Below are positions 1,640-38,219 of a DNA stretch of 64,000 nucleotides, one piece after another. The translations under genes were made by a program, and so were the position numbers. The DNA lies in IMG/VR virus record IMGVR_UViG_3300020474_000005, positions 1 through 64,000 of that record, one strand, 5' to 3'. The notes under the pieces were generated by a model. It was not told where the DNA came from, did not search any database, and worked only from the letters and a program-made list of their open reading frames with translations. Position 1 is the first letter of the stretch, and every line of letters starts with the position of its first letter. The DNA comes from a virus.

Positions 1640-3796
1640 ATGGCAATAGACGAAAGATTACTTGAAAAACTTATGGACGGCGTCGACGCGAAGGGCGGGA
1701 TAGCCTCCGAACAGACTTTACAAGAGTTAAAAGACGTATTGTCCGGTAGAACGAGTACCGGATTCGGAAAAGTCATTAAAGATGTTGCTAAAGGGGGAGG
1801 CGGCATGGGCGGAATGTTTAAACGTCTAGCCGTTGCAATTACCGATGTCCAAGATGAGGGCGAATTTTTAAAGGACAGTTTCGAAGCAATTAAAATATCC
1901 ACAAGAGCCGCGGCAGGCGGAATGGAAGGCATGACTGCCGGACTTTATGAACTGGGTGATTTGGCTGGAGGCATAACAGGTAAATTAATAACTGGATTAG
2001 CAATGGCTTCGGAAGTTATTGGTGCTAACGTAACAGCATTTAGAAATTTGTCAAACGTTGGAGCCAATGCAACACTTGATTTGGAAAGATTAAGAGAAGC
2101 ATCAGGAAGAACAGGAATAGACTTAGACACACTAGTTGGCGAAACTGTAAGACTATCTAAAGAGTTTGCACAATTAACTGGATCACCTGCAACCGGTGTT
2201 AATAGATTTTTCAACATTCTCGAATCCTTCAACCAAGGTGACTTTAGAAGAGATTTCCAAGCACTAGGTTTAACAACAGCGGATCTTGCCGAGCAGACTG
2301 GAACCTATCTAGAAATACAAACTAGATTAGGAAGAGCACAAAGCATGACACAAGGACAGTTGAATACTGGAGCAAGTAATTTTATCCTGCAATTAGATGA
2401 ACTTGCAAGATTGACCGGACAACAGAAAAGTGAATTACAGGCAGAATTGAGAACGCAGGCATTGGATAGAAGAATTCGATTGACTGGTAACCAAGAAATG
2501 CAATCAAGTATTGCCAGGGTAGCCGCGTTTGCACCGGAACTGCGTGACAGTTTTGTAAACATAATTGGTACAGGGTTTCCAAGAACAATGGAAGAGATAG
2601 GTATCTTCAGTAAGGCTGGAGTTGGAGAAGCCGTTCAAGCAATCAGAGACGGAGTACCTGGAGCATCGGATCAATTAGTGGCGGCACTACAAAGAGCGTC
2701 TATGGAAACTGCCAACATGAGTGCAGAGGAAAGAAAAAGATTACAAACACTAGTAAACACAACTGATGGATTCTTTAATGCCGACGTTGCTTTAATTGGA
2801 TTCCAAAAAGCGACACAAGAGCAAACAGAAACAATTAGGAAACAACAAGAGTTTCAGAAGTCACAAGAAAGTAATTTAATAAATTTAGACAGAGCGTCTG
2901 AAAGACTACGTACAGCATTCTTATCGTTAGTATCACAATTCACTCCAGTGTTTGATGTTATTGCGGCAGGCTTAGAAAAATTTGCTACTATATTAACAAA
3001 TATTTCTGTAGGTTTGCAAAATAAATTTGAAGGACTAGGAGACAGCACAGCAAAACTTATTGCCGCTTTCGCAGTTTTAACAACAGGAGTTCTTGCAGTC
3101 AAAGGTGGAAAAGCATTAATAGGTGCAGGTAAAAGTTTATTTGGTGGAGGCGCACAAACAAATCCATTACAGAACGTTGCACCAGGAACAGGTGGAATGT
3201 TAGGTGGACTAGGTATGGGACTGAAAGGTTTCGCTGGTGGTTTGAGAGCATTCGCTAATCCGATGGTAGTGTTAGGTGCAGGTGCATTAGGTGCCTCGAT
3301 AACATTAGTTGGAGCAGGTATCGCCGGTGCAACATACTTGATGGGCGGTGCATTAGAAAAATTTGGAGAAGGTCTAAAGAGCATAGGTGAAGTTGATGGC
3401 AAGAACTTAATGGAAGTTGCCAAAGGTTCAACAGCACTTGCAGGAGCAATGGTGGCTTTGGCAGGCGGAGGTACCGTTTCAGCAGTAACAGGCTTCTTTG
3501 GTAAACTTTTAGGTGGCGGAACAGATAATTTTGCCAAAAACATCAATAATATGCTAGATAATCTTGACAAAAACAAAATAGATATGTATGCTACAAGTAT
3601 TAACAATCTTGGAGAATCTATGCAATCACTTTCTTCTGGAATGCAAACGGTGACAACTGGAGCCGCAAAGGGAACAGGAGATAAATTGGATCAGTTAAAT
3701 AGTACAATGGAGCAGATTTTAATGGTGATGAGTGAAAATACTAGATATGCTCTTAAAACATCACGGTCATCTACAGAGGTAGCAGAAGCAGTATAA
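1640..3796 (+). CDS. Tape-measure-like tail/structural protein
   Basis: This 718-residue protein has long helical, Gln- and Leu-rich stretches followed by a Gly/Ala-rich hydrophobic segment at about residues 470-575 (for example VLTTGVLAVKGG and GAGALGASITLVGAGIAGA), typical of tail tape-measure proteins that span the tail tube and cross the membrane on DNA entry. It lies between the gp26-like gene and gp20, and its stop overlaps the gp20 ATG (TAATG). The frame extends back to a TTG at 1613, but the ATG at 1640 is preferred because a late promoter motif lies between the two. No strong ribosome binding site is visible. T4 gp29 would be the functional counterpart; direct homology was not recognised. 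Confidence 0.55.
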   Translation: MAIDERLLEKLMDGVDAKGGIASEQTLQELKDVLSGRTSTGFGKVIKDVAKGGGGMGGMFKRLAVAITDVQDEGEFLKDSFEAIKISTRAAAGGMEGMTAGLYELGDLAGGITGKLITGLAMASEVIGANVTAFRNLSNVGANATLDLERLREASGRTGIDLDTLVGETVRLSKEFAQLTGSPATGVNRFFNILESFNQGDFRRDFQALGLTTADLAEQTGTYLEIQTRLGRAQSMTQGQLNTGASNFILQLDELARLTGQQKSELQAELRTQALDRRIRLTGNQEMQSSIARVAAFAPELRDSFVNIIGTGFPRTMEEIGIFSKAGVGEAVQAIRDGVPGASDQLVAALQRASMETANMSAEERKRLQTLVNTTDGFFNADVALIGFQKATQEQTETIRKQQEFQKSQESNLINLDRASERLRTAFLSLVSQFTPVFDVIAAGLEKFATILTNISVGLQNKFEGLGDSTAKLIAAFAVLTTGVLAVKGGKALIGAGKSLFGGGAQTNPLQNVAPGTGGMLGGLGMGLKGFAGGLRAFANPMVVLGAGALGASITLVGAGIAGATYLMGGALEKFGEGLKSIGEVDGKNLMEVAKGSTALAGAMVALAGGGTVSAVTGFFGKLLGGGTDNFAKNINNMLDNLDKNKIDMYATSINNLGESMQSLSSGMQTVTTGAAKGTGDKLDQLNSTMEQILMVMSENTRYALKTSRSSTEVAEAV

Positions 3797-5523
3797 TGAG
3801 TTGGAAAAAATTTTTTAGTGAAGTGCCGGTACAAGGCGCAACAGACGGAACATATTCAGCAATGGGCGGAGCCGCTACAGGCAAACCAGGTCCAGCAAAA
3901 ACAAACTATTCATCATATCTTCCAGATGTGTACAGCGGTGCACCAAACAGGATAGAAAGATATGGACAATACAATGTGATGGACATGGACAGTGAGGTGA
4001 ATGCCGCACTAGACATACTTGCAGAATTTTGCACACAGAACAATTCACAGAACGACACTCCATTCAAGTTCGGATACAAACAAAAAGCAACAAACACTGA
4101 AGTACAGATACTAGAACAGTATCTTCACCAATGGTGCAAGTTGAATGATTTCAACAAACGTATCTTTAAGGTTATGCGTAACGTATTCAAGTTTGGTGAT
4201 GCTTTCTTTATTAGAGATCCTGAAACTAAAAAATTGTTTCATGTTGATCCAGCAAAAGTTTCTAAAATTATAGTTAATGAAAGCACAGGAAAGACTCCTG
4301 AGCAATATGTTATTAGAGACATCAACTTTAATTTTAGAAGTTTAGTAGCAACAACTCCTTTTCAAACAACAGGTAACGTGACTGGCGGCGGTTCAGGATA
4401 CTTAACTGGTGGGGTAAGAGGCATGGTTGGTGCAAACTACAATGATTCACCTGGCACAAGATTTGCAACAGGACAAAGAGAGATAGCGGTAAACGCCGAG
4501 CACGTGTTCCATTTAAGTTTAAGTGAAGGTCTTGACATGAACTTTCCTTTCGGAAACAGTTTATTAGAGAGTGTGTTTAAGGTTTACAAACAAAAAGAAC
4601 TATTAGAAGATGCAATTATAATTTATAGAGTACAAAGAGCACCTGAAAGACGTGTGTTTTACATAGACGTAGGTAATATGCCATCGCACTTGGCAATGCA
4701 ATTTGTAGAAAGAGTTAAAACTGAGATCCACCAAAGACGTATTCCGTCAAGCACAGGTGGAGGAACAAACGTAATTGATTCAAGTTACAATCCTTTATCA
4801 ATTAATGAGGACTACTTCTTCCCACAAACAGCAGAAGGAAGAGGTTCTAAAGTAGAAACACTACCAGGTGGTACTAACTTAGGTGAAATAGATGACCTTA
4901 AGTACTTTACAAACAAACTATTAAGAGGTTTACGTATACCTAGTTCATACTTGCCAACAGGAGCAGACGATGGACAAAGCCAATACAACGATGGTAGAGT
5001 AGGAACTGCCTACATACAGGAATTAAGATTTAACAAATACTGCGAAAGATTACAAAATTTAGTGTCTAATGAATTCAATCAAGAGTTTAAACAGTATTTG
5101 ATAGAAAAAGGTGTGAACATTGATGTTGCGATGTTCGATATCAAGTTCCAACCACCAATGAACTTTGCATCTTACAGACAAGCAGAAGTAGACAACAACA
5201 GAATTAGTACATACACACAGATTGCAACTGTTCCTTATGTTAGCAAACGTTATGCACTACAAAGATTCTTAGGACTTACTCCAGAAGAGATGGCTGAAAA
5301 TGAAAAACTATGGAGAGAAGAGAACGACGAGAACATTAAAGCGAAGCCTACAACATCAGCAACTGAATTAAGAAGTGCTGGAATCAGCACAGCAGGTATA
5401 GATGCTGACTTAGATGCGGCTGAGCCAGATGCACCAGCAACAGAACCAGGAGCACCAGCAGGTGACACGCCAGCAGACGCTACTCCAGGCGGTACGACAC
5501 CAACTCCAGGTCAAGGAACATAA
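3796..5523 (+). CDS. 20: Portal vertex protein gp20
   Basis: This 575-residue protein is the T4-type portal that forms the dodecameric DNA gate at the capsid vertex and initiates prohead assembly. The N-terminus has R-Y-x-x-Y-N-V-M-D-M-D-S-E-V-N-A-A-L-D near residues 54-74, then a 'VFKFGDAFF' segment and 'RAPERRVFYIDVGNMP', all strongly typical of gp20. 'PAGADD'-type text (LPTGADDG) and an 'F-N-x-Y-C-E-R-L-Q' helix follow. The last 50 residues are a low-complexity Ala/Pro/Thr/Asp tail. Length is slightly above T4 gp20 (524). The start overlaps the stop of the tape-measure gene. Confidence 0.95.
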   Translation: MSWKKFFSEVPVQGATDGTYSAMGGAATGKPGPAKTNYSSYLPDVYSGAPNRIERYGQYNVMDMDSEVNAALDILAEFCTQNNSQNDTPFKFGYKQKATNTEVQILEQYLHQWCKLNDFNKRIFKVMRNVFKFGDAFFIRDPETKKLFHVDPAKVSKIIVNESTGKTPEQYVIRDINFNFRSLVATTPFQTTGNVTGGGSGYLTGGVRGMVGANYNDSPGTRFATGQREIAVNAEHVFHLSLSEGLDMNFPFGNSLLESVFKVYKQKELLEDAIIIYRVQRAPERRVFYIDVGNMPSHLAMQFVERVKTEIHQRRIPSSTGGGTNVIDSSYNPLSINEDYFFPQTAEGRGSKVETLPGGTNLGEIDDLKYFTNKLLRGLRIPSSYLPTGADDGQSQYNDGRVGTAYIQELRFNKYCERLQNLVSNEFNQEFKQYLIEKGVNIDVAMFDIKFQPPMNFASYRQAEVDNNRISTYTQIATVPYVSKRYALQRFLGLTPEEMAENEKLWREENDENIKAKPTTSATELRSAGISTAGIDADLDAAEPDAPATEPGAPAGDTPADATPGGTTPTPGQGT

Positions 5524-5531
5524 ATATCAAT

Positions 5532-5771
5532 ATGATATTACGTGAATTATTCTATTTCGATCAAATTAGCACCCAACCAGGTGAGCAAAAACAGTACGAT
5601 TCTACTGAAGACCAGTCAATCATGCAGATGGATGACACACGTAAAACAAGATTAAGTCTAAAACAGATCAACAAAGCACGTAAAGCCGGTGAATTCCACA
5701 AAGATGAACAAGAGAAAGAACTTGTATTTGTGAGACAGATGTACGGCACAGCCAACCAGCCAGAGGTTTAA
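5532..5771 (+). CDS. Small conserved protein downstream of gp20
   Basis: This 79-residue basic protein follows gp20 after 8 nt. Its middle, T-R-K-T-R-L-S-L-K-Q-I-N-K-A-R-K, and the C-terminal Q-M-Y-G-T-A resemble short proteins found between gp20 and gp21 in T4-like marine phages. In T4 this place is held by gp67 and gp68 (prohead core), so a role in prohead assembly is possible but is inferred from position only. Confidence 0.6.
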   Translation: MILRELFYFDQISTQPGEQKQYDSTEDQSIMQMDDTRKTRLSLKQINKARKAGEFHKDEQEKELVFVRQMYGTANQPEV

Positions 5772-5774
5772 TAA

Positions 5775-6362
5775 GTGTCCGTTGCTTTTGTCTTGGGCAA
5801 TGGTCTCAGTCGCAAACCGATACCTTTCGATCCACTTAAAAAGATAGGCAAAGTTTATGCCTGCAATGCCGTTTACCGATCACACACCCCAGATTACCTT
5901 GTGGCAGTTGATGCCAAGATGGTTAATGAGATATGTGATGCAGGAGCACAATTAAGAATGCCTGTTTGGACCAATCCTAATCACGCATATAAGAAATTCA
6001 AGGGATTAAACTTCTTTGAACCAAGCCTTGGTTGGTCATCTGGACCAACTGCACTATGGTTGTGTTGTTCACATAACCATCAACTGGTGTATTTGCTTGG
6101 TTTCGACTTCCTAGGCACAGATCAAGGCAAACTAAACAACATCTACGGTGACACAGACAACTACAAAAAGAATTCAGATGTTGCAACATACCATGGCAAC
6201 TGGAATAGGCAAACAGCAATCATACTACAGAAGAACGGACAGAAGAAATTTTGCAGAGTTATACCCGATGGTGGTCAGGTATTTCCAGCAGAAGACCTTA
6301 AAAAGTACACAAATTACAGCGAAATCACGGTATCTGAGTTCAAACATCAATACCACCTGTAA
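5775..6362 (+). CDS. Conserved Rossmann-like protein of unknown function
   Basis: The 195-residue frame starts with GTG at 5775, four nt after the previous stop. The N-terminus reads V-A-F-V-L-G-N-G-x-S-R, then a 'YACNAVYR' strand and 'YLVAVDAKM', and later 'LLGFDF' followed by 'NNIYGDTDNYKK'. This order (a G-N-G loop, an N after a strand, a D after 'VAV') recalls DUF115/MptE-like and sialyltransferase-like Rossmann proteins that bind nucleotides or nucleotide sugars. The enzyme activity is not known. Its place between portal and prohead core genes suggests it travels with the head module. A hairpin follows it at 6374-6394. Confidence 0.6.
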   Translation: MSVAFVLGNGLSRKPIPFDPLKKIGKVYACNAVYRSHTPDYLVAVDAKMVNEICDAGAQLRMPVWTNPNHAYKKFKGLNFFEPSLGWSSGPTALWLCCSHNHQLVYLLGFDFLGTDQGKLNNIYGDTDNYKKNSDVATYHGNWNRQTAIILQKNGQKKFCRVIPDGGQVFPAEDLKKYTNYSEITVSEFKHQYHL

Positions 6363-7532: not shown

Positions 7533-7553
7533 TAGTTGAGTTTAGGAAAACGG

Positions 7554-8177
7554 ATGTTACAATTACGAGAGACACTGACTTTCGACCAAGCGGGAATAGT
7601 CGTTGAGTCCAAGGATGAAAACAACGGTAAAAGCCTTTATATGAAAGGCATATGCATTCAAGGTGGCGTGAAGAACGCTAACCAGAGAGTGTACCCTGTT
7701 AACGAAATCCAAAGGGCTGTCAGTACGCTCAACGATCAAATCAAGGGCGGATATTCAGTTCTCGGAGAAATTGATCATCCAGAAGGCTTAAACATCAATT
7801 TGGATCGTGTATCACACATGGTAAATGAAATGTGGATGGACGGACCTAACGGATACGGGAAATTAAAAGTATTACCTACACCGATGGGATCTCTAATCAA
7901 AACAATGCTGGAAAGCGGAGTTAAATTAGGAGTCTCATCGCGTGGTAGTGGTAATGTATCAGAAGACGGATCCGGAAAAGTATCAGATTTTGAAATTATT
8001 ACCGTTGACATAGTTGCACAACCATCGGCGCCGGGAGCATATCCTGAGCCCATCTACGAGCACCTAATGAATACAAAAGGCGGTTATAAAGCATTTAACT
8101 CAGCAAGGGACAAACAGGCACAAGAATACTTAAAAGAAAAACTAGTAAACATAATTGGAAAACTCCAATCTAAGTAG
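7554..8177 (+). CDS. 21: Prohead core protease gp21
   Basis: This 207-residue protein is the T4-type maturation protease that cleaves capsid and core proteins. The motif GEIDHPEG carries the expected catalytic His (residue 75), and LGVSSRGSG carries the Ser (residues 128/129); 'DIVAQPSAPGA' follows, as in the family. Length matches T4 gp21 (212). The frame is open back to a TTG at 7536, but the ATG at 7554 has TAGGAAAA at proper distance and gives the usual N-terminus (LRETLTF). gp22 follows 14 nt after the stop. Confidence 0.93.
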   Translation: MLQLRETLTFDQAGIVVESKDENNGKSLYMKGICIQGGVKNANQRVYPVNEIQRAVSTLNDQIKGGYSVLGEIDHPEGLNINLDRVSHMVNEMWMDGPNGYGKLKVLPTPMGSLIKTMLESGVKLGVSSRGSGNVSEDGSGKVSDFEIITVDIVAQPSAPGAYPEPIYEHLMNTKGGYKAFNSARDKQAQEYLKEKLVNIIGKLQSK

Positions 8178-8191: not shown

Positions 8192-9274
8192 ATGTTAGAA
8201 GCACTGAAATCACTTTTTGAAACGAACGCAATTTCGGAAGAGATCAGAGCGGAAATAGAATCAGCGTGGAACAAAAAAGTTGACGAAAACAAACTTGCTG
8301 TTACTGCCGAATTGAGAGGTGAATTTGCAGAGAAGTACGAACACGACAAAGCAAATTTAACTGATGCTGTTGATAAAATGGTATCAGAGAGAATCGAAGC
8401 AGAAATGGCTGAATTCGCGGAAGACAAGAAAGCATTGGCAGAAGAAAAAGTCAAGTATGCTACTCAAATTCGTGAGCATTCAGATAAGTTAAAATCATTT
8501 GTTTTTGAACAACTTAAGAGTGAAATTGCTGAACTACACAATGACCAAAAAGTTATGGCTGAAAACTTCAGTAAACTTGAGGACTTTGTGGTTGAGGCTC
8601 TATCAAAGGAAATTAGTGAGTTCCATCAAGACAAACAAGACGTTGCCGAAACAAAGGTACGTCTAATCCGTGAAGCAAAAGCACATTTTGAAAAAGTTAG
8701 AAATAACTTCATATCAAAAGGCGCTGAAAAAGTATCAGAAATAGTAGGCAAAACTCTTAACAAAGAGATTAGTTCACTAAAAGATGATATTGATGCGGCA
8801 CGTAAGAATGACTTTGGTCGCAGAATGTTCGAAACTTACAGCACAGAATACTCAAACAGTTTTCTGAACAGTAAGAGCGAAACTTCAAAACTTCTAAAAG
8901 TTGTGGATACAGCGAAGCAACAATTAGAAACTGCGAAAGAGACTGCCAACGAGAAAGACAAGATCATCGAGTCAAAAGTTAAAGAAATAGAAGATCTTAA
9001 GAACACGGCAGAGAGAGATTCAGTTATCAATGAGTTAATTCAACCATTGAATGCTGAACAAAAAGATATAATGACAAATCTTTTGGAGAGTGTACAGACC
9101 GGACAACTTAGAAAGCAGTTCGAAAAGTATGTACCGGCTGTAATAAACGGTAGGTCTCCAGCGAAGAAACAGGCTTTAAAAGAAGGCACAGAAATAACAG
9201 GCGACAAACAAATAGTAAACGCAGGTCAATTCAACAGCAAACTTGTTGATATTAAAAGACTTGCAGGTATATAA
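8192..9274 (+). CDS. 22: Prohead scaffold protein gp22
   Basis: This 360-residue protein is almost entirely charged helix (Glu, Lys, Ala, Asp), with heptad-like coiled-coil segments from about residue 20 to 280, and lies between gp21 and gp23, the fixed position of the T4 scaffold gene. The C-terminal part contains V-x-x-x-x-G-R-S-P-A-K-K. A clear ribosome binding site (AGAGGAGAAA) precedes the ATG. The product forms the inner core around which gp23 assembles and is later degraded by gp21. Confidence 0.88.
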   Translation: MLEALKSLFETNAISEEIRAEIESAWNKKVDENKLAVTAELRGEFAEKYEHDKANLTDAVDKMVSERIEAEMAEFAEDKKALAEEKVKYATQIREHSDKLKSFVFEQLKSEIAELHNDQKVMAENFSKLEDFVVEALSKEISEFHQDKQDVAETKVRLIREAKAHFEKVRNNFISKGAEKVSEIVGKTLNKEISSLKDDIDAARKNDFGRRMFETYSTEYSNSFLNSKSETSKLLKVVDTAKQQLETAKETANEKDKIIESKVKEIEDLKNTAERDSVINELIQPLNAEQKDIMTNLLESVQTGQLRKQFEKYVPAVINGRSPAKKQALKEGTEITGDKQIVNAGQFNSKLVDIKRLAGI

Positions 9275-9287
9275 GGAGAAACGACAA

Positions 9288-10460
9288 ATGTCAGAACTAA
9301 CAGAAACACGCTGGCAGGATACGAAGAGTGCGTTATTAGAAGGCTTAACTGGAAACAGAAAAGCAGTCATGGAGTCAACTTTAGAAAATACTAAAAAGTA
9401 TTTGGCTGAGGCGGCGACAGCAGGTGCCACATCTGCAGGTAACGTAGCAACTTTGAACAGAGTGATCCTACCGGTAATAAGACGGGTTATGCCTACTGTG
9501 ATCGCAAACGAGATCGTTGGTGTACAACCAATGACTGGTCCAGTTGGACAAATCCACACTCTAAGAGTAAGATACGCATCGACTAACGACGCTACTGGAA
9601 CATCAAATGATGTAACAGCAGGCGACGAAGCATTATCTCCATTCAAAATAGGTCAAGCCTATTCTGGAGATGGAACTGCCGGAAAAGCAGACGCAACAGC
9701 ATCTAAAGAAGGTGTTGGCGGTAATGCAATGTCAATCCAAATCTTGAAACAGACAGTTGAAGCAAAAACTAGAAAGTTACAAGCAAGATGGACATTCGAA
9801 TCGGCGCAAGATGCTCAAGCACAACAAGGCATTGATGTAGAGGCTGAAATCATGGCGGCATTAGCACAAGAAATTACTGCTGAAATCGACCAAGAGATCA
9901 TCAACTCATTAAGAGCTCTAGCGGCTACTGAAGAAACATTCAACCAAGCGGCAGTATCAGGTACGGCAACGTTCGTAGGTGATGAACACGCGGCTTTGGC
10001 TGTTTTAATCAACAGAGTTGCTAACAAAATCGCACAAAGAACAAGACGTGGTGCAGGTAACTATGCAGTGGTATCACCACAAGCATTAACTATACTTCAG
10101 TCTGCAACAACTTCTGCGTTCGCAAGAACAACAGAAGGTGCGTTTGAGGCTCCAACAAACCAAAAATTCGTTGGTACTTTAAACAGTGCGATGAAAGTAT
10201 ATGTTGATACATATGCGGCTGACGACACGGCAGTATTAGTAGGTTACAAAGGTTCATCTGAAGCAGATGCGGCGGCGTTCTACTGTCCATACATTCCGTT
10301 AATGTCAAGCGGCGTTGTACTTGACCCGTCAACTTTCGAACCAGTAGTGTCATTTATGACAAGATATGGTTATGTAGAGTTGAACAACACGGCAAGTTCA
10401 CTAGGTAATGCTGGTGACTACGTGGGTGAAGTTGCAATATCTAACGTATCTTTTGCTTAA
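9288..10460 (+). CDS. 23: Major capsid protein gp23
   Basis: This 390-residue precursor has the gp23 signature I-V-G-V-Q-P-M-T-G-P-V-G-Q-I at about residues 75-88 and the C-terminal motif Y-C-P-Y-I-P-L-M followed by FMTRYGY. The ATG at 9288 follows AAGGAGAAACGACAA; an upstream in-frame extension to 9243 overlaps gp22 and is unlikely. A T4-type protease site is visible: Y-L-A-E at residues 38-41 followed by A-A-T-A, which fits the L/I-x-E cleavage rule of gp21, so the mature protein likely starts at residue 42. A strong terminator follows at 10486. Confidence 0.96.
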   Translation: MSELTETRWQDTKSALLEGLTGNRKAVMESTLENTKKYLAEAATAGATSAGNVATLNRVILPVIRRVMPTVIANEIVGVQPMTGPVGQIHTLRVRYASTNDATGTSNDVTAGDEALSPFKIGQAYSGDGTAGKADATASKEGVGGNAMSIQILKQTVEAKTRKLQARWTFESAQDAQAQQGIDVEAEIMAALAQEITAEIDQEIINSLRALAATEETFNQAAVSGTATFVGDEHAALAVLINRVANKIAQRTRRGAGNYAVVSPQALTILQSATTSAFARTTEGAFEAPTNQKFVGTLNSAMKVYVDTYAADDTAVLVGYKGSSEADAAAFYCPYIPLMSSGVVLDPSTFEPVVSFMTRYGYVELNNTASSLGNAGDYVGEVAISNVSFA

Positions 10461-10485: not shown

Positions 10486-10515
10486 AAAGGGCGGCTTTTT
10501 TAAGTCGCCCTTTTT
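10486..10515 (+). terminator. Strong intrinsic terminator after gp23
   Basis: AAAGGGCGGC and GTCGCCCTTT pair across a T-rich 8-nt loop (one G-T wobble) and are followed by TTTTT. It ends the capsid transcript. Confidence 0.85.
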
Positions 10516-10990: not shown

Positions 10991-11019
10991 TTGACATCTT
11001 AACCAAAATTTGTTATATT
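10991..11019 (+). promoter_or_regulatory. Consensus sigma70-type promoter for the lipoprotein-hemB operon
   Basis: TTGACA (10991-10996), a 17-nt spacer and TATATT (11014-11019) form a near-perfect host-type promoter. The ATG of the lipoprotein gene is only 8 nt after the -10 box, so the predicted transcript is leaderless or nearly so. The same layout recurs at 61340. Confidence 0.8.
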
Positions 11020-11027: not shown

Positions 11028-11225
11028 ATGAAGAACATCGCGATAATAATACTAGGATTCTTATTCTTATCTGCTTGTAGTGTATCTAATCCAAAAGTTT
11101 CTTTGGGTAAAAAATGTGTGGTAAAAGACGACAGCGTCAGTTACTCATATGTTTGGATATATGACAAAAACACAGGTTTACCTGCGTCAGAAGAACAGTG
11201 CAAAGCACTACCTAAGAAAGACTAG
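11028..11225 (+). CDS. Small lipoprotein
   Basis: This 65-residue protein has a typical type II signal: MKN, a hydrophobic core (IAIIILGFLFL) and lipobox L-S-A-C with Cys at residue 17. The mature part is about 49 residues with two more cysteines. Phage lipoproteins of this size can act in superinfection exclusion or envelope modification, but nothing specific is visible. It is the first gene after the promoter at 10991 and lies 2 nt before hemB, so the two should share a transcript. Confidence 0.7.
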   Translation: MKNIAIIILGFLFLSACSVSNPKVSLGKKCVVKDDSVSYSYVWIYDKNTGLPASEEQCKALPKKD

Positions 11226-11227: not shown

Positions 11228-12019
11228 ATGGAACTAATCCAGCCTATCTTTGTGAACCAATCTGGCTCTACTAGAGAGGCTGGTTTAGGAATAGAAAATT
11301 CGAACTATTCGGAAACAGATATACTTGAAAGAATACAAAAAGATGTAGACAAGGGAGTTGACAGTTTCCTACTATTCATAACTCCAGACACAAAAACATG
11401 GAATCCTACTTGGGATTTCCAAGCGGACATAGTAAACAAAATTAAAAATAAATTTCCAAAAAATGAATTAATAGTAGACGTGTGTCTATGCTCGACACTG
11501 CCAGATGGTCATTGTAGAGTTTTGGATAAACCAGACACAACTGATAGGTTGCTTACAGATTTAGGTATAAAATTAGAGAAGGCAGGAGCAGATATATTAG
11601 CACCAAGCGACATGGGAGACAACACAGTACAAAATTTAAAATTAGAAACAAAGTCTACAATAATGGCATACGTGAAATGGAGAAGTGTGTTTTACAGTTC
11701 ATTTAGAGAATTGGCAGACAGCAGTCCAAGTAGCGAAAGATTTTATCAGATGAATTTAGACAACAGTTGGAATGCCACAGGCACAGCACACAAATATGAT
11801 AAAGCAGGAGCAGATATGCTTTTACTAAAACCAGCAATGCATTCAATAGATGTTTTTGGAATAATCAAGGCTGGCACATACAAACAATGCGGATTCTTCC
11901 AGGTGTCAGACGAGTACAAAGGATTACCTACAATTAAACATCAAGTAGAAGTTGCAGGCATAATGAAAAGAGCAGGAGCACAATTTTTAGTTACATATGG
12001 AGCAAGAGATCTGGTATGA
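11228..12019 (+). CDS. hemB: 5-aminolevulinate dehydratase (porphobilinogen synthase)
   Basis: HemB condenses two 5-aminolevulinate molecules to porphobilinogen in heme and other tetrapyrrole synthesis. The protein is 263 residues, shorter than cellular HemB (about 320-340). Visible family motifs: LIQPIFV near the start; the metal site D-V-C-L-C then G-H-C (Cys86, Cys88, Cys96, with the spacing of the zinc-type enzyme); ADILAPSDM; MAYVKWRS with Schiff-base Lys150; FYQM and NS; ADMLLLKPA with the second Lys201; FFQVSDEY; and a C-terminal RAGAQFLVTY. All catalytic and zinc ligands appear present. The missing part is mainly the N-terminal arm that holds the octamer together in cellular enzymes, and there is a one-residue deletion near Lys150. 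It is co-transcribed with the lipoprotein gene and overlaps the next gene by ATGA. Confidence 0.92.
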   Translation: MELIQPIFVNQSGSTREAGLGIENSNYSETDILERIQKDVDKGVDSFLLFITPDTKTWNPTWDFQADIVNKIKNKFPKNELIVDVCLCSTLPDGHCRVLDKPDTTDRLLTDLGIKLEKAGADILAPSDMGDNTVQNLKLETKSTIMAYVKWRSVFYSSFRELADSSPSSERFYQMNLDNSWNATGTAHKYDKAGADMLLLKPAMHSIDVFGIIKAGTYKQCGFFQVSDEYKGLPTIKHQVEVAGIMKRAGAQFLVTYGARDLV

Positions 12020-12291
12020 CGGAAGAAGAAAAATTACTCGCGGAATACAACGACTACATGAATAGGATCACAACATGGAAAAAGAACCATGGAATATTCT
12101 ATAAGGACATACAAAAATTAGAAGACGCAGTTGCTATAATCATGGATAAGCGGTCAGATAAACTGATTGATTACCGTAGAACACGAAAACAACGTTATCT
12201 AGACGAAGCAAACGATATACTCAAAGATGCACTAAAAACCATTAAAACGTTCTCGAAAGTGGAACTATTGGCATCACTCAGCAAACGATAA
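12016..12291 (+). CDS. Conserved small helical protein, unknown function
   Basis: This 91-residue charged, mostly helical protein overlaps the hemB stop by four bases (ATGA), so translation is coupled. It has a Y-N-x-Y-M-N-R-I-T-T-W-K-K-N helix near the start, a D-Y-R-R-T-R-K-Q-R segment in the middle and a C-terminal K-V-E-L-L-A-S-L. No family or function is recognised; the basic middle part could bind nucleic acid or protein. Confidence 0.55.
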   Translation: MTEEEKLLAEYNDYMNRITTWKKNHGIFYKDIQKLEDAVAIIMDKRSDKLIDYRRTRKQRYLDEANDILKDALKTIKTFSKVELLASLSKR

Positions 12292-27500: not shown

Positions 27501-29749
27501 GACAGTACGCGATAGTTGATACTTTTAACGAAGTGACAAAAGTTGCAACAGTTAAAAAAGAATTTGATAATACACCAGGTTGGCAACATTTACTAGGTGG
27601 CTTCCCGATTGCGGCTGTATTAGATCCATCTACAAAATATTTCATCGAGCCTAGAGCCAGTTTTGCAGAACCAAGTTATACTAGCACAACTCCAAATTTA
27701 GCGATAGCAGGTGATTATCAAGTTGGTTGTCATGGAAGAATAGGTTCTTCTAACATCACAGTATTATTAGGTTCTGGCAGAGGTTCTAGAACATCAGACG
27801 GTACAAACTTTACTACTTGTAGTGGTGTATCCACAACTACTTGGAATGATATCGAAGCAAATCAAAATAAATTTATAGCAGTTTCGTCAAGCGGTGTAGT
27901 AAACACATCTAACGATGGTGCTACATGGAGTGACATAAGTGGTTCAGTTGGTTCAGACACATTCACAGGTGTTGCGGCGATTGGAACAACTTGGATAATT
28001 GTATCAGACACAGGTATTATATATCGTTCAACAGATAACGGTTCAAGTTGGACAAACTCACAAGTAGAACCATATGATGGTTCAACTCCGATATTTAAAT
28101 ATGTTGCGGCAGGTAACGGATTGTTTATAACTTCTAACCAATACGGACAAACTTGGGAATCAGTTGATGATGGTGTTACATGGCAATTGGCGGCAATAGT
28201 TGGTGGACAAGGTGTAGGTGGTTACAAATATCTTGCAAAAGATTTAGTTTTCAAAAATGGAAAATTCTTAATGCCTGTACAAGATTCACCATTAGATGAT
28301 TCAACGTCATTGAATAAAATTTTTGTAACAAACGCTAACGTGGCACAAAGTTCTACAAGTGCAGTTACAACTTGGACTGAATCAGATACTTTACCACACA
28401 GTGGACCTTACAAAGTTACAGGTATGCAAGGAACTTTTGTGGCAATCACTGCAAATGGTGAGGTAGCATACAGTTACGATGGTATGTGTTGGAAACAATT
28501 AACAGGAACACTTTCAGGAACATATGACAAAATTGTTGAAGGAAGAAATTCAGGTGGTTACTTTATTCCACTAAAAACAACTGCAATGAGTTCAGCAACT
28601 GTAATGAAAAAAGGTGCTCCACCATTAGCAAGAGTTATTACAAACGCAGGAAAACTTTCAAAAGTACAAATTTTTGATCCAGGAAGTGGTTATTCGGCGG
28701 CGCCTAACATAACAATTACTGATAATAGAAATACTATAGATGCACAACTGCAATGTAGAATTGCAAATGGTGTACTAGGGCAACCTACATTTACAAACAG
28801 AGGTACAGGATTTATAAATGTAAGTGCAACAATTACTGGTGATGGTTTAGCAGATGAATATCAAGTTGGAAAAGTTGTACAAATAAAAGATTTATCACGT
28901 GAACCTGGTCCAGGAGACTTGTTATACGTGACTGGAATCGCAGATCAAATATATAGAGTTACACAAATTACAAACGTAAGTGGAAGTGCACCAAACTTAT
29001 CAGCAACGTTTAGAATATCACCAAGTTTTAAAGAAAATGAATCTCCGGATCATGAAACAACGTTAACTATCAGACAACAATATTCACAAATTAGATTAAC
29101 TGGACACGACTTCCTAGATATAGGTACTGGTGGAACAAGCACAACAAACTATCCAGACTTATACACTAACCTAGGATTTACTACTGGTTATGAAGCACAA
29201 CAAAATAAAGAAGTTAAAATGAGTGGTGGTGGAAGAGTATTCTACACTTCAACTGACCAAGATGGTAACTTTAGAACAGGTGAATTGTTTGAAGTAGAAC
29301 AGTCAACAGGTATTGTAACACTAAACGCAGACTTATTCAACCTATCAGGATTAAGTGAATTAAGTTTAGGTGGTGTTGTATTAGGTGGTACAGAAGTTGT
29401 AATTAGAGAATTTAGTACAGACGAAACTATGTCTGCCAACTCTAATGAAAAAGTTCCAACGCAGAAAGCAGTTGTTTCTTACATTGGAAACAGAGTATCT
29501 GGCGGTGGTGCTAACTTGAACGTTTCTGGATTTAGAGCAGGTCAAGTTAAAGTAAGAAATGCCGAAATATTTAACGAAGCATTTCCAACTAATGGAACTA
29601 TTACGTTCCCACAAACCACTGAATTAGCAGGTGGAATTGACGGTTACTTGATGGCATTAAACTATTTTACAGGTGGTGTTGCAAGTACAGAATTAAATGA
29701 AGGAGATCCGATTAGTGCAACAGACCCATCTAACGGATATGGACAATAA
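24584..29749 (+). CDS. Giant fibre protein: carbohydrate-binding-like repeats, beta helix and BNR-type repeats
   Basis: This 1721-residue protein has, in order: eight repeats of the type W-x-G-x-W-x3-T-x-Y-x2-G/D-D-x-V-x2-G-G-x-x-Y-x-C (residues about 10-540), like CBM5/12 carbohydrate-binding modules; a pectate-lyase-like beta helix from about residue 605 (YVAPEGNDTINNG, PFKTIKYACDYI, 'PRDVAIVGDELRSTTIKP'); an Asp-box/BNR-like region at about residues 1060-1310 (TSNDGATW, YRSTDNGSSW, ESVDDGVTW, YSYDGMCW), which suggests a beta propeller; and the C-terminal module 'STDQDGNFRTGELFEVEQ' with 'PTQKAVVSYI', shared with the protein at 29785. Likely a host-surface polysaccharide-binding fibre. No catalytic site was assigned. 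Confidence 0.65.
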   Translation: MADFRIDRIRFKWRGDWTAGTLYVKDDVLRFGAKVYVCTEVHTSDSNFYNDLNATIPRWTQMMDGQSWTGAWQPSTFYKIGELVKVGGLIYKCITGHTSNSSASNGVLGDETKWVYFARGEDWASVWQPATLYNVDQTVIYGGSIWKCNTAHTSATADDGLQYNAAYWDQYSRSDNWRGDWTHNTLYYPDDVIYHGGMVYRCLSGHRSSTTNEFISPTIKTSNVSGTSFTFAIFKVTTTYYCRIITAGSGYTALGTITIDGANIGGVTGTNDAVITLNTVDGSGAVTAVSVDGTPNSNTDGLEANQAQWETVMDGIRYQGDWGFGKRYSKGDLVRWSPGMWRTTTGHWSTTGTMDESKFTLWLPGLEFEQLWTTSQYYQQGDIVLYGGYTYLALKSNIGVTPLVTDSSATWQLQIVGYTFKGDWVGQTIVNNQLTPYEYKTGDVVTAGGHLYIAVRTHSNTDPNTDTTYDPGTDTPFPWQKLVDAHAWKGPWKTQDIGGKTGESTYFPGDVVSVAGTIYRCILTHEANSSDAKPPLDFASENVGPYWVLLAQGHAPNVLEYPGDVKTVQSDSTRLRIGLGTAGQLLKVNTNGLPYWEDFEVVQKVFYVAPEGNDTINNGDKLSAPFKTIKYACDYIQQDLNNRAPATVFVKTGIYEEILPITVPRDVAIVGDELRSTTIKPASGYETGYDMFRVNNGTGIRNLSLMGLTGSLGAMNSYGTKRPTGGAFVTLNPGTGPTDASAWITSKSCYVQNVSTFGTGCIGMKVDGDLHNGGNKSIVANDFTQVIDQGIGYWANGEGKSELVSVFTYYCHIGYLATNGGKVRATNGNNSYGDFGSVAEGVTPTETAITAKINNRTKEATVDAVYNDENEIFAFAYAHAGQDYTSGTITISGSGAGAAGTLGYANTRDGGVNRIRLMGPGDSTPAGGAGYTSISGPAISGDKTSIKLNAQFQGTSAQTIGQRIYIREGTGRGQYAIVDTFNEVTKVATVKKEFDNTPGWQHLLGGFPIAAVLDPSTKYFIEPRASFAEPSYTSTTPNLAIAGDYQVGCHGRIGSSNITVLLGSGRGSRTSDGTNFTTCSGVSTTTWNDIEANQNKFIAVSSSGVVNTSNDGATWSDISGSVGSDTFTGVAAIGTTWIIVSDTGIIYRSTDNGSSWTNSQVEPYDGSTPIFKYVAAGNGLFITSNQYGQTWESVDDGVTWQLAAIVGGQGVGGYKYLAKDLVFKNGKFLMPVQDSPLDDSTSLNKIFVTNANVAQSSTSAVTTWTESDTLPHSGPYKVTGMQGTFVAITANGEVAYSYDGMCWKQLTGTLSGTYDKIVEGRNSGGYFIPLKTTAMSSATVMKKGAPPLARVITNAGKLSKVQIFDPGSGYSAAPNITITDNRNTIDAQLQCRIANGVLGQPTFTNRGTGFINVSATITGDGLADEYQVGKVVQIKDLSREPGPGDLLYVTGIADQIYRVTQITNVSGSAPNLSATFRISPSFKENESPDHETTLTIRQQYSQIRLTGHDFLDIGTGGTSTTNYPDLYTNLGFTTGYEAQQNKEVKMSGGGRVFYTSTDQDGNFRTGELFEVEQSTGIVTLNADLFNLSGLSELSLGGVVLGGTEVVIREFSTDETMSANSNEKVPTQKAVVSYIGNRVSGGGANLNVSGFRAGQVKVRNAEIFNEAFPTNGTITFPQTTELAGGIDGYLMALNYFTGGVASTELNEGDPISATDPSNGYGQ
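24614..26200 (+). repeat. Eight CBM5/12-like repeats at the N-terminus of the 24584 protein
   Basis: Repeat units of about 50-70 residues carry W-x2-x-W, then T-x-Y-x2-x-D-x-V and G-G-x-x-Y-x-C/A followed by H-T-S or similar. The fourth and fifth units are separated by an insertion of about 80 residues. The same array occurs in the 29785 gene. Confidence 0.6.
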
Positions 29750-29750
29750 T

Positions 29751-29758
29751 GATAAATA
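29751..29758 (+). promoter_or_regulatory. T4-type late promoter (GATAAATA) for the 29785 gene
   Basis: GATAAATA lies 26 nt before the ATG at 29785, and AGAGGAAATT lies between as ribosome binding site. Confidence 0.6.
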
Positions 29759-29784
29759 ACTTTAATAAGAGGAAATTTTAACCC

Positions 29785-32700
29785 ATGGCAGAGTTTAAAC
29801 TAGGTAGAATACGTTTTGTATGGAAAGGTGCTTGGTACACGAGCACTATATACAGTGTAGATGACGTTGTAAGATACGGTGGTAGAACATATATCTGTGT
29901 TGTCAACCACACGGCTAACGCATCATTTCAAGTTGATTTAACAGCGGCAAATTGGGCGTTGATGTCCGATGGTCAAGAATGGAAAGGCGATTGGAGTCTT
30001 AACACAACTTACAAACCAAACGATATTGTAAAATACGGTGGTTACATTTACATTGCTAACACAGGACACACATCTAGTTCAAGTGCATCAGACGGATTAG
30101 AAGTTGATTCTTCTAAATGGGATTTATTCATTGAAGGTTTTGATTACAAATCATCTTGGGCAATCAACACAAGATACAAAGTTAACGATTTAGTAAAATA
30201 CGGCGGAGTAGTTTATCTTTGTATAACAGAACACACTTCAGCGGCAACAACCGCAGATGGTTTAGAAACTGATCAAGCGAAATGGGAAGCATTTTCAAAA
30301 GGATTCAATTGGTTAAACACTTGGGCAACTAGCACAAGATACAAATCAAAAGACACAGTTTCATATGGTGGACAGATTTATGTTTGTATAACAGGTCACA
30401 CATCAAACGCATCGGCGGCATCAGGATTAGAAGCCGACCAAGCGAAATGGGAATACCTACACAAAGGTATAGAGTACAAAGGTGCTTTCGCAGGTACAAC
30501 AAGATACAAAGCAAACGATGTTGTTAAAGGTGGAGCAAACTTATACATCTGTACAACAGGTTACACATCAACAACAGATATAAATGCAGATGCATCTAAC
30601 TGGTCATTATTTGTTCCAGGTTTAGAATTTGAAGATTCATGGAGTTCAGCAACAAAATATCAACCAGGTGACACAGTTACTTACGGTGGTTACCAATATG
30701 TTGCAAAAACTTTAAACGAAAATAAAGTTCCGTCAACGCAAACAAGTGACTGGGCATTATTTGTAACAGGATTTAATTTAAGAGGCGACTACAACAACGG
30801 AACAGCATACAAAACTGGTGACGTTGTAAGAGTTGGTGGTTTCACTTACATAAACATTGCAGACTCAACAGGTAATAGACCACCTAACGTTGTATACTGG
30901 AACAAACTTAATGAAGGTATGTACTGGAAAGGCAACTGGGCCAATGCAACTTATTACGACAAAGGTGATATTGTAAGAGGAACATTAAACACAGATACAT
31001 CTTATATTTGTGTTGGTTCGCACACATCGAACAATCAAGCACCAAGCACAATCAATCAACCAGATTATCCAGCAGGAGCAGGTGTAGACACATCTAACTG
31101 GCAATTATTATCAGGCGGTCCTGAAAATGATGTATTATCTGCACAAGGTGATATTTTAATTTACGGTGCATCTGGTCCACAAAGATTACCAATTGGCACA
31201 TCGGGACAAGCATTAGTTGTTAATGCGGCAGGTACTTTACCAGAATGGGGCAACGTAGGTAAAATTGATCAAGTTTATTATGTAAGTCCAAATGGAACGG
31301 ACAAACCAGCACCAACATCAGGTGTAACTTTAGATAGAGCATGGAAAACAATTAGATATGCACTTCATGAAATAGATAAAGGTCCTAGAAACCCACAAGC
31401 GGCTTATATGCTTACAAGAAACAAAGCATACATCCAAGATGAAACTATTGCTTGGATCAATGCACAGATTGCCGGTAACGTTCCACCATTTACAACTTCG
31501 TTCACATACGGCGCAGTAAAATGTAGAAGAGACATTGGTATAATCATTGACGCAACAATCTATGACTTAACACACGGTGGAAACATTAAATCAAGATTTG
31601 CGGCATTAAATTACTTTACACCAGCAGGTGCTTCTTATGTAACAGGACAAACGTCTGAAACAGCGGCGTCTATTGTTCAGGCAAGTGCTATTGCTAAATT
31701 AGTTGTTGCAAACGGAACACACAGTAACTTACAAGGTTCAACACCTAAGTATGCAAATGCGGCTTACACAGCAGAAGAAGGTACAACTACACTAATTGAA
31801 ACATTGATGAAATATTCATCAGATGCAATCACGGCAGGTAACGTAACAAGTGTACCAGTAGCAAACAATCCAAACATTACTTTAAATGTTAAAACAGGAA
31901 TTTACAACGAAATTCTTCCAATGAGAGTTTCAAGAAACACAGCAGTTGTTGGAGATGAATTAAGATCAACAAACATCAGACCAGCGGCTTCAGTTGTTAA
32001 CTCTTCAGATGTACAATACAGTCTACAAGGTATACAACGTATGGAAGCAATTATAAGCGATGTTGTACAAAACAACTCAGTAACAAAAACACCATCAGGT
32101 GGTGTTGTGTCAGTTACTATGCCAGGTGGTTACATAGGTGTAACTCAAGGTACAGGAACAGCAGTTTCTTCAACTGGTGGTGATGGTACAGGTGCAACAT
32201 TTAATATCACAACTAACGCATTTGGTTTCGTAACTAATTTAACAGTGGCGGCTCCAGGACAAAGTTATATAATTGGAAACAATATTACAATACCAGCAAG
32301 TACAGTTATCGTTGGAACAAGTGGTAACACAACACTTGGTGTTGCAGTTACTTTCCCAGTTACAGCAGTAACTTCAGGAAACACACTAACACAGAACACA
32401 GATGCTCCGGCAGGTAACGCGACTGTTGGTACTAGAGCGGCTACAATCGCTGATCAAATTGAGAAGTACATTGACTTCAAAATCAACGCAAACGGTTCGG
32501 AACCAGCACTTCAAGGTAGCAATATTGCTGAATTTACAGCGGCTTACACAGATGCAAGATTAAGACTTTTAGCAAACAAAGAATTTATTGCCAAAGAGGC
32601 GGCTGAATATGTGAAAAGACAAAACCCAGGCGTAAGTTTTGTTGTTGCAGATTGTGAAGATGACATCAAAGATTACGTAGACGGAATTATTCACGACTTA

Positions 32701-35460: not shown

Positions 35461-35484
35461 TAATAAAAAGAAGGAGAAAAGGAC

Positions 35485-35805
35485 ATGGCATCAGGAAGAA
35501 TAGGAAAAGCAAATCTTACTGCCGCTACCAATACCACTGTGTATACGACACCTGCTTCAACTTTCACGGTTGCATCAGTATCGTTTTGTAACAGAGGTAA
35601 TCAAGCCATTAGTGTCAGATTAGCGGTGGCGGATAGTGCAACTCCAGATAACGCAGAATTTGTTGAATTTGAAACAGAAATTCTGTCTCATGGGGTGTTA
35701 GAAAGAACAGGTTTGGTACTGAGTGCAACACAGAAATTGGTTGCATACTCTAGTGCGGCTAACGTAAGTGTGGTAGTTACTGGTATAGAAACAAGTACTG
35801 CTTAA
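35485..35805 (+). CDS. Small beta-rich virion protein (paralogue family)
   Basis: This 106-residue protein (GRIGKANLTAATNTTVYTTP at the start, then 'TVASVSFCNRGNQAISVRLA') is related to the proteins at 13837 and 22074. A strong GAAGGAGAAAAGGAC ribosome binding site precedes it. It follows the giant fibre gene after 24 nt and is probably an accessory fibre or virion protein. Confidence 0.55.
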   Translation: MASGRIGKANLTAATNTTVYTTPASTFTVASVSFCNRGNQAISVRLAVADSATPDNAEFVEFETEILSHGVLERTGLVLSATQKLVAYSSAANVSVVVTGIETSTA

Positions 35806-35820
35806 TTTTGTGTAGAATAA

Positions 35821-35828
35821 CATAAATA
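35821..35828 (+). promoter_or_regulatory. T4-type late promoter (CATAAATA) for the 35853 gene
   Basis: CATAAATA followed by GTA lies 24 nt before the ATG at 35853, with CGAAGGAAAC between. Confidence 0.6.
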
Positions 35829-35852
35829 GTATAAACGAAGGAAACAAAAAAA

Positions 35853-36185
35853 ATGGGAAGATACATATCAACAACTGGAACTGCTGGAGTATCCACTAAA
35901 ATAGTGAGTACAACACACCAAGCGGCGGTAAATGAGAGAATCTTAGCAAACAGTTCTTCAGGAACGTTTACAATAACGTTACCTACGAACACTAGTTTAT
36001 TGACAAATGATACAATTCAAATCATCGACGCAAACTCTAGTTTCGGAACTAACGCGGTAACTGTTGCAAGAAATTCATCTTTAATTCAAGGAGCGGCAGA
36101 CGATTTGACTCTTGACTTAAATGGTGCAATAGTAACTTTAATTTACACAGGTTCGACTTATGGTTGGATCGTAGGTGCTGTATAA
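35853..36185 (+). CDS. Small virion/fibre protein
   Basis: This 110-residue protein (MGRYISTTGTAGVSTKIVST) has a beta-rich Thr/Ser/Asn composition with 'SGTFTITLPTNTSLLTNDTI' and ends in Y-G-W-I-V-G-A-V. The pattern 'tltLP...n...vtv...ns...i.g.a....l' is common in phage tail fibre heads. It lies just before the three cysteine-rich genes. No family name can be given. Confidence 0.5.
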   Translation: MGRYISTTGTAGVSTKIVSTTHQAAVNERILANSSSGTFTITLPTNTSLLTNDTIQIIDANSSFGTNAVTVARNSSLIQGAADDLTLDLNGAIVTLIYTGSTYGWIVGAV

Positions 36186-36233
36186 TATTTTTTATTATAC
36201 TACACTTATAAAACTAATTGGGAATCGGAGACT

Positions 36234-37196
36234 ATGGCAAGTTTAAAATCATTACTCGGTACAAAGCAAGATGCATTCGTATCGGTTGCGGAATCTAACC
36301 TAGAAAAAGGTCAGATTTTTACATACCATAACGGTGCAAACTACTCTAGAATATGGTGCGGATTTTGTTTCCATCCAAGCGTATCTGGAACAGCAGTAGT
36401 AGAGGCGTGGGGAGCAGGTGGCTCTGGCGCTGAGATGTGTTGTTGCGGTTTTGGTCTTCCAGGTAACTCAGGTGCCTATGTTAAGAAAACAGTTGTGATG
36501 TCAGTCGGCGACTACATTTGTGGTTGTACTGGTATATCTTGCGGAAATTCATCAGATTTATGTTTTAGAGGTTGTTCAGAACCTACCATGTTAAGATTTT
36601 GCATAGGTGGCGCAGAGACTTGCGTGTGTGCAGAAGGTGGTAGAGGTGGAATAACTTATTGTTCAACTAATAACAGTTTTTATTGTTGCTACAGAGCAAA
36701 TGGTTTCTGTGTAACAAAAACAGACAATAACCAATGTGGAATTATTTGTAACCAATGTAACGGTGCATGGGTAGCCTGTGCATACGGTGGTGAAACAAAT
36801 AAACCAGGATTAAATTCTTGTGTATCAGCATTTGGTTGTTATCCATCATGTATTTGTATGTTTAATCACCACATTCCAACTCCAGCGGGACAAGGTTCCA
36901 AAGAGGGAAGGATGATTGTATATACAAATGACAACAGTAACGATTTTGCACAATGGTCAGGTCAAGGTCATCACCAACACAGAGCAAATTTAGGATCAGG
37001 TAGATTTCCAACAGGCGGTATACCTTGGTCATCTTGTTGGGGTTTCAGTGGTGCTTGTGGTTGTTATGAAAACGACGGTTGTGTTCCAGTGCTTCCAGTA
37101 GGAACTGGTGGTAGAGGACCTAACCCTTGTCCAGGTGTTAGAGATCACGCAATCAGAGGTGGCTTTGGAGCAGTAAGGATTAGATTTATTAGTTAA
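36234..37196 (+). CDS. Cysteine- and glycine-rich protein, copy 1 of 3
   Basis: This 320-residue protein contains about 30 cysteines, many as CC, CCC, CxC or CxxC, plus glycine-rich strands (VEAWGAGGSGAEMCCCGFG, AEGGRGG) and a conserved end R-D-H-x2-R-G-G-x-G-A-V-R-I-R-F. No signal peptide is visible. It is the first of three tandem paralogues. The G-x-G-G-S-G segment resembles glycine-rich adhesin or fibre-tip loops; the cysteines could bind metal or form disulfides in the virion outside the cell. The ribosome binding site is GGAATCGGAGACT. Function not known. Confidence 0.6.
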   Translation: MASLKSLLGTKQDAFVSVAESNLEKGQIFTYHNGANYSRIWCGFCFHPSVSGTAVVEAWGAGGSGAEMCCCGFGLPGNSGAYVKKTVVMSVGDYICGCTGISCGNSSDLCFRGCSEPTMLRFCIGGAETCVCAEGGRGGITYCSTNNSFYCCYRANGFCVTKTDNNQCGIICNQCNGAWVACAYGGETNKPGLNSCVSAFGCYPSCICMFNHHIPTPAGQGSKEGRMIVYTNDNSNDFAQWSGQGHHQHRANLGSGRFPTGGIPWSSCWGFSGACGCYENDGCVPVLPVGTGGRGPNPCPGVRDHAIRGGFGAVRIRFIS

Positions 37197-37205
37197 GGAT
37201 TTATT

Positions 37206-38219
37206 ATGGCAAGTTTAACAACATTATTACAAACCAAATATGATTTTGCAGTAGGTAACGAGACTAACCTAGAGCAAGGAAGAATTTATCAGTACTATCC
37301 AGGCAGTGCTAGAGGTACAAACTTTAGATGTCACGTATGTTGGGTAGCACCATCGGCTGGTACAGCAACTATTGAGATATGGGGTGCTGGTGGATCAGGT
37401 GCAGAGATGTGCTGTTGTGGATTTGGTATTAACGGAAATCCAGGAGCATACAGTAAAAAAGTTTTAACAATGGCATCAGGCTGTTTCATTTGTGGAATAG
37501 TTGGTCAGTCATGTGGTAACGCAGATGACCTATGTCACAGAGGTACTTCAGAGTCAACACAAATTTGTTGGTTTGCAGGCGGTGCCGACGGTTGTATGTG
37601 TGCCCAAGGTGGTAAGGGTGGTTACTCTTACTGTTCAACAGGTAACTCAGGTTACTGTTGTTTTGTAGCAGGTGCTTTCTGTAACACACAAGGCGGAGAT
37701 TCATACTGCGGAATTATTTGTAACTTTAAAGATTCATCAAGTGAACCAACTTTCTGTGCCCAAGCATATGGCGGAGATAATAACTGCTACGGCGGATTCA
37801 GTTGTTTCTATTTTAGAGGATGTCAACCAAACTGTAACTGTAGACAAGTTCCAGTTCTTAGATTCCCACCAGGACAGATATCTACAAAAGGTGGTGAAGT
37901 ACACTACACATTAGATTCTGACAATGGAAGATCACAATGGTCAGGAATGGGTGGTTGGATGAATGCCTCACACGGATTTAACCTTGCAACAAGATCACCA
38001 ACACAGGGTGGTCCATACACTGCTTGTTGGACAGGTAACAGAAGTTGCGGTTGTTATCAAGCAAATGGTTGTATACCTTTCATGCCAGCAGGAATTGGTG
38101 GACAAGGTCCAAGACCATGTGATGGTGTAAGAGATCACGCACACAGAGGTGGTCATGGTATGATTAGAATTAAATTTGTAAGTACTACTAGTGATTACGA
38201 TCTAGATAGTGCACCGTAA
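37206..38219 (+). CDS. Cysteine- and glycine-rich protein, copy 2 of 3
   Basis: This 337-residue paralogue of the 36234 protein has about 29 cysteines at largely the same positions, for example IEIWGAGGSGAEMCCCGFG, the CxC before GGKGG, C-G-I-I-C-N and the G-C-Q-P-N-C-N-C cluster, with the same terminal R-D-H-x2-R-G-G motif plus a short extra tail (STTSDYDLDSAP). It starts 9 nt after copy 1. Sequence between the cysteines differs clearly, so the copies are old or under divergent selection. Confidence 0.6.
   Translation: MASLTTLLQTKYDFAVGNETNLEQGRIYQYYPGSARGTNFRCHVCWVAPSAGTATIEIWGAGGSGAEMCCCGFGINGNPGAYSKKVLTMASGCFICGIVGQSCGNADDLCHRGTSESTQICWFAGGADGCMCAQGGKGGYSYCSTGNSGYCCFVAGAFCNTQGGDSYCGIICNFKDSSSEPTFCAQAYGGDNNCYGGFSCFYFRGCQPNCNCRQVPVLRFPPGQISTKGGEVHYTLDSDNGRSQWSGMGGWMNASHGFNLATRSPTQGGPYTACWTGNRSCGCYQANGCIPFMPAGIGGQGPRPCDGVRDHAHRGGHGMIRIKFVSTTSDYDLDSAP

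Follow-up and report, generated by a model that had tools for sequence, protein, structure and literature searches.

The window (the whole stretch of 64,000 nucleotides analysed here) covers positions 1 to 64,000 of an IMG/VR record that is 76 kb long. Its plus strand successively encodes a T4-like portal protein gp20 (3796..5523; PF07230, E=2e-111), the prohead protease gp21 (Peptidase_S77, profile match; 7536..8177), a prohead core or scaffold protein that is gp22-like by position and serves as lineage marker (8192..9274; phrog_10922, E=6e-73) and the major capsid protein gp23 (9243..10460, with a likely start at ATG 9288; PF07068, E=3e-100), and a terminase-like gene, recognised by sequence, lies beyond the window on the same record. 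3' of gp23, a terminator-like hairpin of the intrinsic type (12 bp stem followed by a T tract; 10486..10513, plus strand) is predicted to set the capsid unit apart from a small plus-strand cassette. This cassette is composed of a small lipoprotein-like ORF of 65 aa whose sequence contains a signal peptide and an LSAC lipobox (11028..11225), the hemB gene encoding an arm-less porphobilinogen synthase (PBGS) of 263 aa (11228..12019) and a 91-aa ORF (12016..12291). We confirmed the coordinates and strand of the hemB frame, which is uninterrupted.

The cassette is preceded by a sigma70-type promoter (TTGACA-17 nt-TATATT; 10991..11019, plus strand) located just 5' of the lipoprotein-like ORF and containing in its spacer the octamer ACCAAAAT, which could be an operator. 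It is the only TTGAC[AT]-N16-18-TATA[AT]T site within the 64-kb window; its position is kept in the examined relatives, and the octamer is common to their spacers. Each of the five long near-lineage contigs in which the region is included (the window, G007, G008, G012 and G033) carries this promoter with its octamer once, at this place, and the motif occurred 0 times in shuffled sequences. The lipoprotein-like ORF precedes hemB in nearly all near-lineage contigs (its start, as mechanically called, overlaps the promoter in L129 and L131) and its stop is separated from the hemB ATG by a gap of 2 nt. The hemB stop overlaps the ATG of the 91-aa ORF (ATGA), which comes next throughout the window lineage and may encode a functional partner; neither of these two small ORFs gave a family match in profile searches. 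The arrangement suggests a translationally coupled three-gene unit that would be transcribed by a host-type RNA polymerase. Elsewhere in the window, the minus strand (54271-57735) encodes a cupin, an epimerase, a PfkB kinase-cytidylyltransferase fusion and a NUDIX protein, a set that resembles ADP-heptose/LPS sugar synthesis.

Family, fold and reduced architecture of the protein

By profile, fold and catalytic residues, the window protein is a member of the PBGS family. It matches PF00490 (E=8.4e-45, 153.7 bits for a cut-off of 24.6, profile positions 26-314 of 317), the family named in the original prediction, and in a sequence search its best matches among the porphobilinogen synthases of the PDB reach 3e-19. 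The cut-offs of the NCBIfam equivalogs NF006762 and NF009923 were missed (138.5 of 297 bits and 98.3 of 507 bits, respectively), as expected for a divergent and trimmed member. The AlphaFold2 model of the monomer (mean pLDDT 94.1, pTM 0.93) superimposes on E. coli HemB (1b4e) with a TM of 0.93 and an rmsd of 1.9 A, and its top 50 structure matches in the PDB are all PBGS/ALAD, which gives the protein a TIM-barrel fold. All the hallmarks that had been listed for this sequence were found: the zinc triad (Cys-X-Cys-X7-Cys; Cys86, Cys88 and Cys96) and the Schiff-base lysines (Lys150 and Lys201), which correspond in the alignment to the zinc-binding and Schiff-base positions of E. coli HemB, together with the APSDM and KPA motifs. 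Both the triad and the two lysines are kept in 46/46 distinct phage HemBs, in which D84, S127, Y148, S153, R160, R171, Q174 and Y257 are also invariant and Y156 (44/46) and S227 (45/46) near-invariant. With the zinc PBGS/ALAD of E. coli (1b4e, 1i8j) and Pyrobaculum (5lzl), the phage protein has in common the TIM-barrel, the Cys3 zinc site, both Schiff-base lysines, the first lid Arg, the Gln of YQ and the substrate-pocket Ser and Tyr. It differs from them (about 26-36% identity) by the absence of the arm, of ~28 aa of internal loops, of the Mg-site Glu and of a nearby Asp, and by a shift of one residue in the second lid Arg.

The missing N-terminal arm, previously noticed in this one protein, turned out to characterise the whole phage clade. 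The reduced size is also real, but its attribution to the arm (60-70 residues) has to be revised: the deficit of ~60 residues relative to E. coli HemB (323 aa) comprises ~27 residues of arm, ~27 residues of internal deletions and ~6 residues at the C-terminus. Compared with 67 cellular HemBs, a 27-aa arm block and internal blocks of 1, 5, 4, 6, 1, 2 and 9 aa are gone. The window protein opens directly with the first barrel strand (MELIQPIF), with 0 arm residues, and no phage copy has more than about 9 extra N-terminal residues, whereas the cellular matches (80/80) all have an N-terminal sequence of 25 aa or more. An arm hidden upstream behind a frameshift or a stop codon was ruled out: the DNA just 5' of hemB belongs to a different gene in a different frame, the lipoprotein ORF kept in related phages, and contains a stop in the hemB frame. 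In some contigs, in-frame upstream extensions of hemB overlap the lipoprotein gene.

Two further regions depart from the cellular type. The column of the allosteric Mg2+ glutamate, which we take to be that of E. coli Glu231/232 in the alignment, is Glu in 98% of cellular HemBs and T, R, S, H, I or L, never E, in the 46 phage HemBs (T186 in the window protein); close to it, a column that is Asp in 100% of cellular sequences is Tyr or Phe in the phages. The active-site lid of the phage HemBs is shorter by two residues than in cells. In PBGS, two lid arginines hold the carboxylate of the substrate. The first of them (R160) is kept in all 46; the column of the second, 100% Arg in cells, is occupied by E, H, G, V, K, S, D or A, and an invariant Arg (R171) stands one residue later, so that substrate affinity could differ. 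The proposal of an intact active site is therefore supported by the sequence and the model for the zinc and catalytic residues, but has to be qualified for the lid, with its two-residue shortening and one apparently displaced arginine.

In cellular PBGS, the arm underlies the octamer/hexamer switch, a textbook case of control of activity by shape change; the octamer-specific arm interface closes the active-site lid and is the only place where the allosteric Mg2+ binds, and non-octameric forms have a high Km (PMC7729013). Because this interface both holds the lid closed and binds Mg2+, the joint loss of arm and Mg-site is coherent. It suggests that the lid of the phage proteins has been re-made in an arm-independent form, and it makes plausible the idea, already advanced, of an unregulated small enzyme. 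The PBGS of Rhodobacter capsulatus, a natural and highly active non-octamer, indicates that the octamer is dispensable (PMC535902). Like the phage HemBs, it has no allosteric Mg2+ site; unlike them, it has no zinc ligands, and its published hexamer model retains N-terminal arms (PMC535902). To judge from these sequence features, the clade without arm and Mg-site constitutes a new, phage-specific PBGS variant.

Distribution and origin of the arm-less proteins

The hemB gene was found in 80 other viral contigs from three viral-contig scans (63, plus 17 new ones obtained via a scaffold-protein search). The near-lineage contigs always present the order gp21-gp22-gp23-(small ORFs, usually a lipoprotein)-HemB-91-aa ORF-structural genes, and HemB follows gp23 in 31/31 testable contigs, that is those with a gp22 at least 62% identical and at least 1 kb of sequence past gp23. 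Just outside this range (gp22 57-60% identical), the region following gp23 in L268, L273 and L274 showed no sign of HemB or of the 91-aa ORF. The slot after gp23 contains an S-adenosylmethionine decarboxylase gene in one of them (L273:8381-8752), which makes this slot an accessory-gene site that is filled by HemB, and has retained it, in one lineage. An AdoMet decarboxylase was also observed near the lone hemB of L178. Pairwise dN/dS values of 0.05-0.29 reveal purifying selection on HemB, and the frame is intact in all complete copies. With T4-like core genes (portal, protease, scaffold, capsid and terminase) alongside it, a gene order repeated without change across dozens of contigs and these dN/dS values, HemB is phage-encoded, as first proposed, and is an auxiliary metabolic gene.

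The carriers are a group of T4-like phages, aquatic and uncultured. The window gp23 is up to 69% identical to the capsid proteins of the jumbo T4-like phages Cronobacter GAP32, Pseudomonas PA5oct, Sinorhizobium Phosso and Vibrio 2.275.O; these phages differ by having no armless HemB, and a tblastn search of a phage collection that includes all four found it in no record. No isolated phage with this HemB was found: the matches in named phages look like host contamination, coming either from unannotated entries of doubtful provenance or from contigs in which bacterial genes surround the match. Two viral contigs were likewise set aside as carrying cellular-type HemBs: L007 is a contig-end fragment, and L006, a short viral contig with podovirus-like genes, ends in a gene for an Asp-type HemB that has its entire arm (5204-6208), probably because the contig includes flanking host DNA of an integrated phage or is chimeric. 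Within the window lineage, G008 (L104-L106) additionally carries GTP cyclohydrolase I, PTPS and radical SAM genes, possibly for a deazaguanine-type DNA modification, a ribosomal L7/L12 C-terminal domain, a Clp protease, an IMP dehydrogenase and, at 28515-43187, a single ORF of 4890 codons.

In a phylogeny with bacterial, archaeal and apicomplexan HemBs, the 46 distinct phage HemBs form one arm-less clade (support 100/100) placed opposite all sampled cellular HemBs, from which it is separated by 1.38 + 1.41 (about 2.8) changes per site. The nearest cellular HemBs among the matches listed share 30-36% identity with them and are spread across many phyla. We therefore rejected the suggestion that the Cys-type metal site could tell where the gene came from: since the phage clade lies outside all sampled cellular groups, on a very long branch, the type of site does not identify a donor.

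Heme operons of distant relatives and proposed function

Distant phage homologues (37-45% identity) have the same arm-less start and adjoin other heme genes. A hemF-hemC-hemE-hemB operon, the last three frames of which overlap by start and stop, was found in L168 (3059-6588) and in eleven near copies (L162-L167, L169-L172 and L174); it is adjoined by PRPP synthetase and fatty acid desaturase genes. L158 and L159 contain hemF-hemB, and L156 (4330-7138) contains pyrF (OMP decarboxylase)-hemF-hemB-heme oxygenase in overlapping frames. Altogether, HemF is present on 15/20 and URO-D on 12/20 of the distant hemB contigs. The 107-kb contig G023 combines hemF-hemC-hemE-hemB with an adjacent pair formed by a heme oxygenase and a ferredoxin-dependent bilin reductase (L182:13273-14506, at 53-54.5 kb of G023). 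A CHASE2/guanylate cyclase, CsgG and curlin repeats are likewise encoded on G023, whose cyclase-domain protein shares 70% identity with its counterpart in Methylophilales phage Melnitz and 48% with the one in Pelagibacter phage HTVC008M. Among other contigs, G013 has many genes in common with the window lineage, and the DnaB-like helicase of G015 has its nearest match in PA5oct. In the window lineage itself, HemF, HemE, heme oxygenase and bilin reductase were not found on 16 contigs of up to 134 kb, nor HemC on 13 contigs searched, all of these being fragments.

The best evidence for porphobilinogen production by the subfamily comes from these operons, which also lend indirect support to the originally proposed demand for heme or another tetrapyrrole. 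We consider it probable that the window protein is a working, arm-independent zinc PBGS of a phage-specific arm-less subfamily, raising tetrapyrrole flux during infection. A precedent is the phage 5-ALA synthase (alaS), the maker of the HemB substrate, which was shown to be active (PMC11480375). HemB would be produced in infection from its own host-type promoter, along with the small lipoprotein and the 91-aa protein, and would condense two molecules of 5-aminolevulinate by means of the Lys150/Lys201 Schiff bases and the Cys86/88/96 zinc. Porphobilinogen would then rise, leading to more heme and, in some relatives, probably also to a higher output of heme-derived bilins. As the arm and the allosteric Mg2+ glutamate are absent, the enzyme presumably cannot use the arm-dependent octamer/hexamer switch; it may work as a dimer or another arm-free assembly, in which Arg171 of the shortened lid would take the place of the displaced lid arginine. 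Several observations weigh against this reading: the missed NCBIfam cut-offs, the altered lid arginine column, the high Km of non-octameric cellular PBGS and the failure to find further heme genes on the fragmentary contigs of the window lineage.

The first alternative, which we regard as unlikely, is that the enzyme is active and serves an end other than heme, namely bilins, iron handling, cobamide for host enzymes or the draining of 5-aminolevulinate. It draws on the heme oxygenase gene directly 3' of hemB in L156, on the heme oxygenase and bilin reductase pair of G023 and on the published phage cassettes, found in aquatic T4-like phages as well, that join hemO, pcyA/pcyX/pebS and alaS and act on a different step of the same pathway than HemB (PMC11480375). 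G023 resembles these phages by its heme oxygenase and bilin reductase; against a non-heme purpose, 0/16 window-lineage contigs (fragments of up to 134 kb) yielded either gene, so that no adjacent hemO-bilin reductase-alaS cassette was seen on them.

We give still less weight to an inactive or moonlighting PBGS fold, for instance a virion component or a host-interaction protein, which would explain why HemB is flanked by gp23 and the tail/fibre genes in the window lineage and could accommodate both the displaced lid arginine and the lost arm. However, all catalytic and zinc residues are kept over deep divergence, distant homologues lie within heme operons, the putative terminator and the separate promoter split HemB from gp23, and the same slot holds a metabolic gene (S-adenosylmethionine decarboxylase) in the outgroup, as is expected of an accessory-gene slot. 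Finally, a truncated and decaying host gene or an assembly artefact, which the shortness of HemB and the contamination-like matches in named phages might have evoked, is refuted by synteny conserved across many metagenomes and by purifying selection on an intact frame, and no cellular relative exceeds 36% identity among the matches listed, leaving it a negligible probability.

Returning to the working zinc PBGS, a bolder formulation, to which we give somewhat less than even credit, is that the phages possess a PBGS branch with octamer-free lid closure, always on and Mg2+-independent, which in some aquatic T4-like phages belongs to a near-complete phage route from 5-aminolevulinate to heme and bilins (hemB, hemC, hemE, hemF, heme oxygenase and bilin reductase). 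Coproporphyrinogen oxidase and porphobilinogen deaminase have been reported in a pelagimyophage group (PMC7029224); these are the same enzymes as those encoded by the hemF and hemC genes beside hemB in the distant relatives. Word searches found no mention of hemB in the text of PMC11480375 and neither HemB nor porphobilinogen synthase in that of PMC7029224, and we found no report of a phage HemB in the openly accessible journal literature searched.

The arm-less clade is thus a natural one maintained under selection, and it makes the need for the arm and the octamer in lid closure and in activity at neutral pH directly testable. It also adds steps of the core heme pathway to a phage tetrapyrrole repertoire of 5-ALA synthase, heme oxygenase and bilin reductases, and the operons of four consecutive heme genes point to tetrapyrrole supply as a factor limiting infection in aquatic bacteria.
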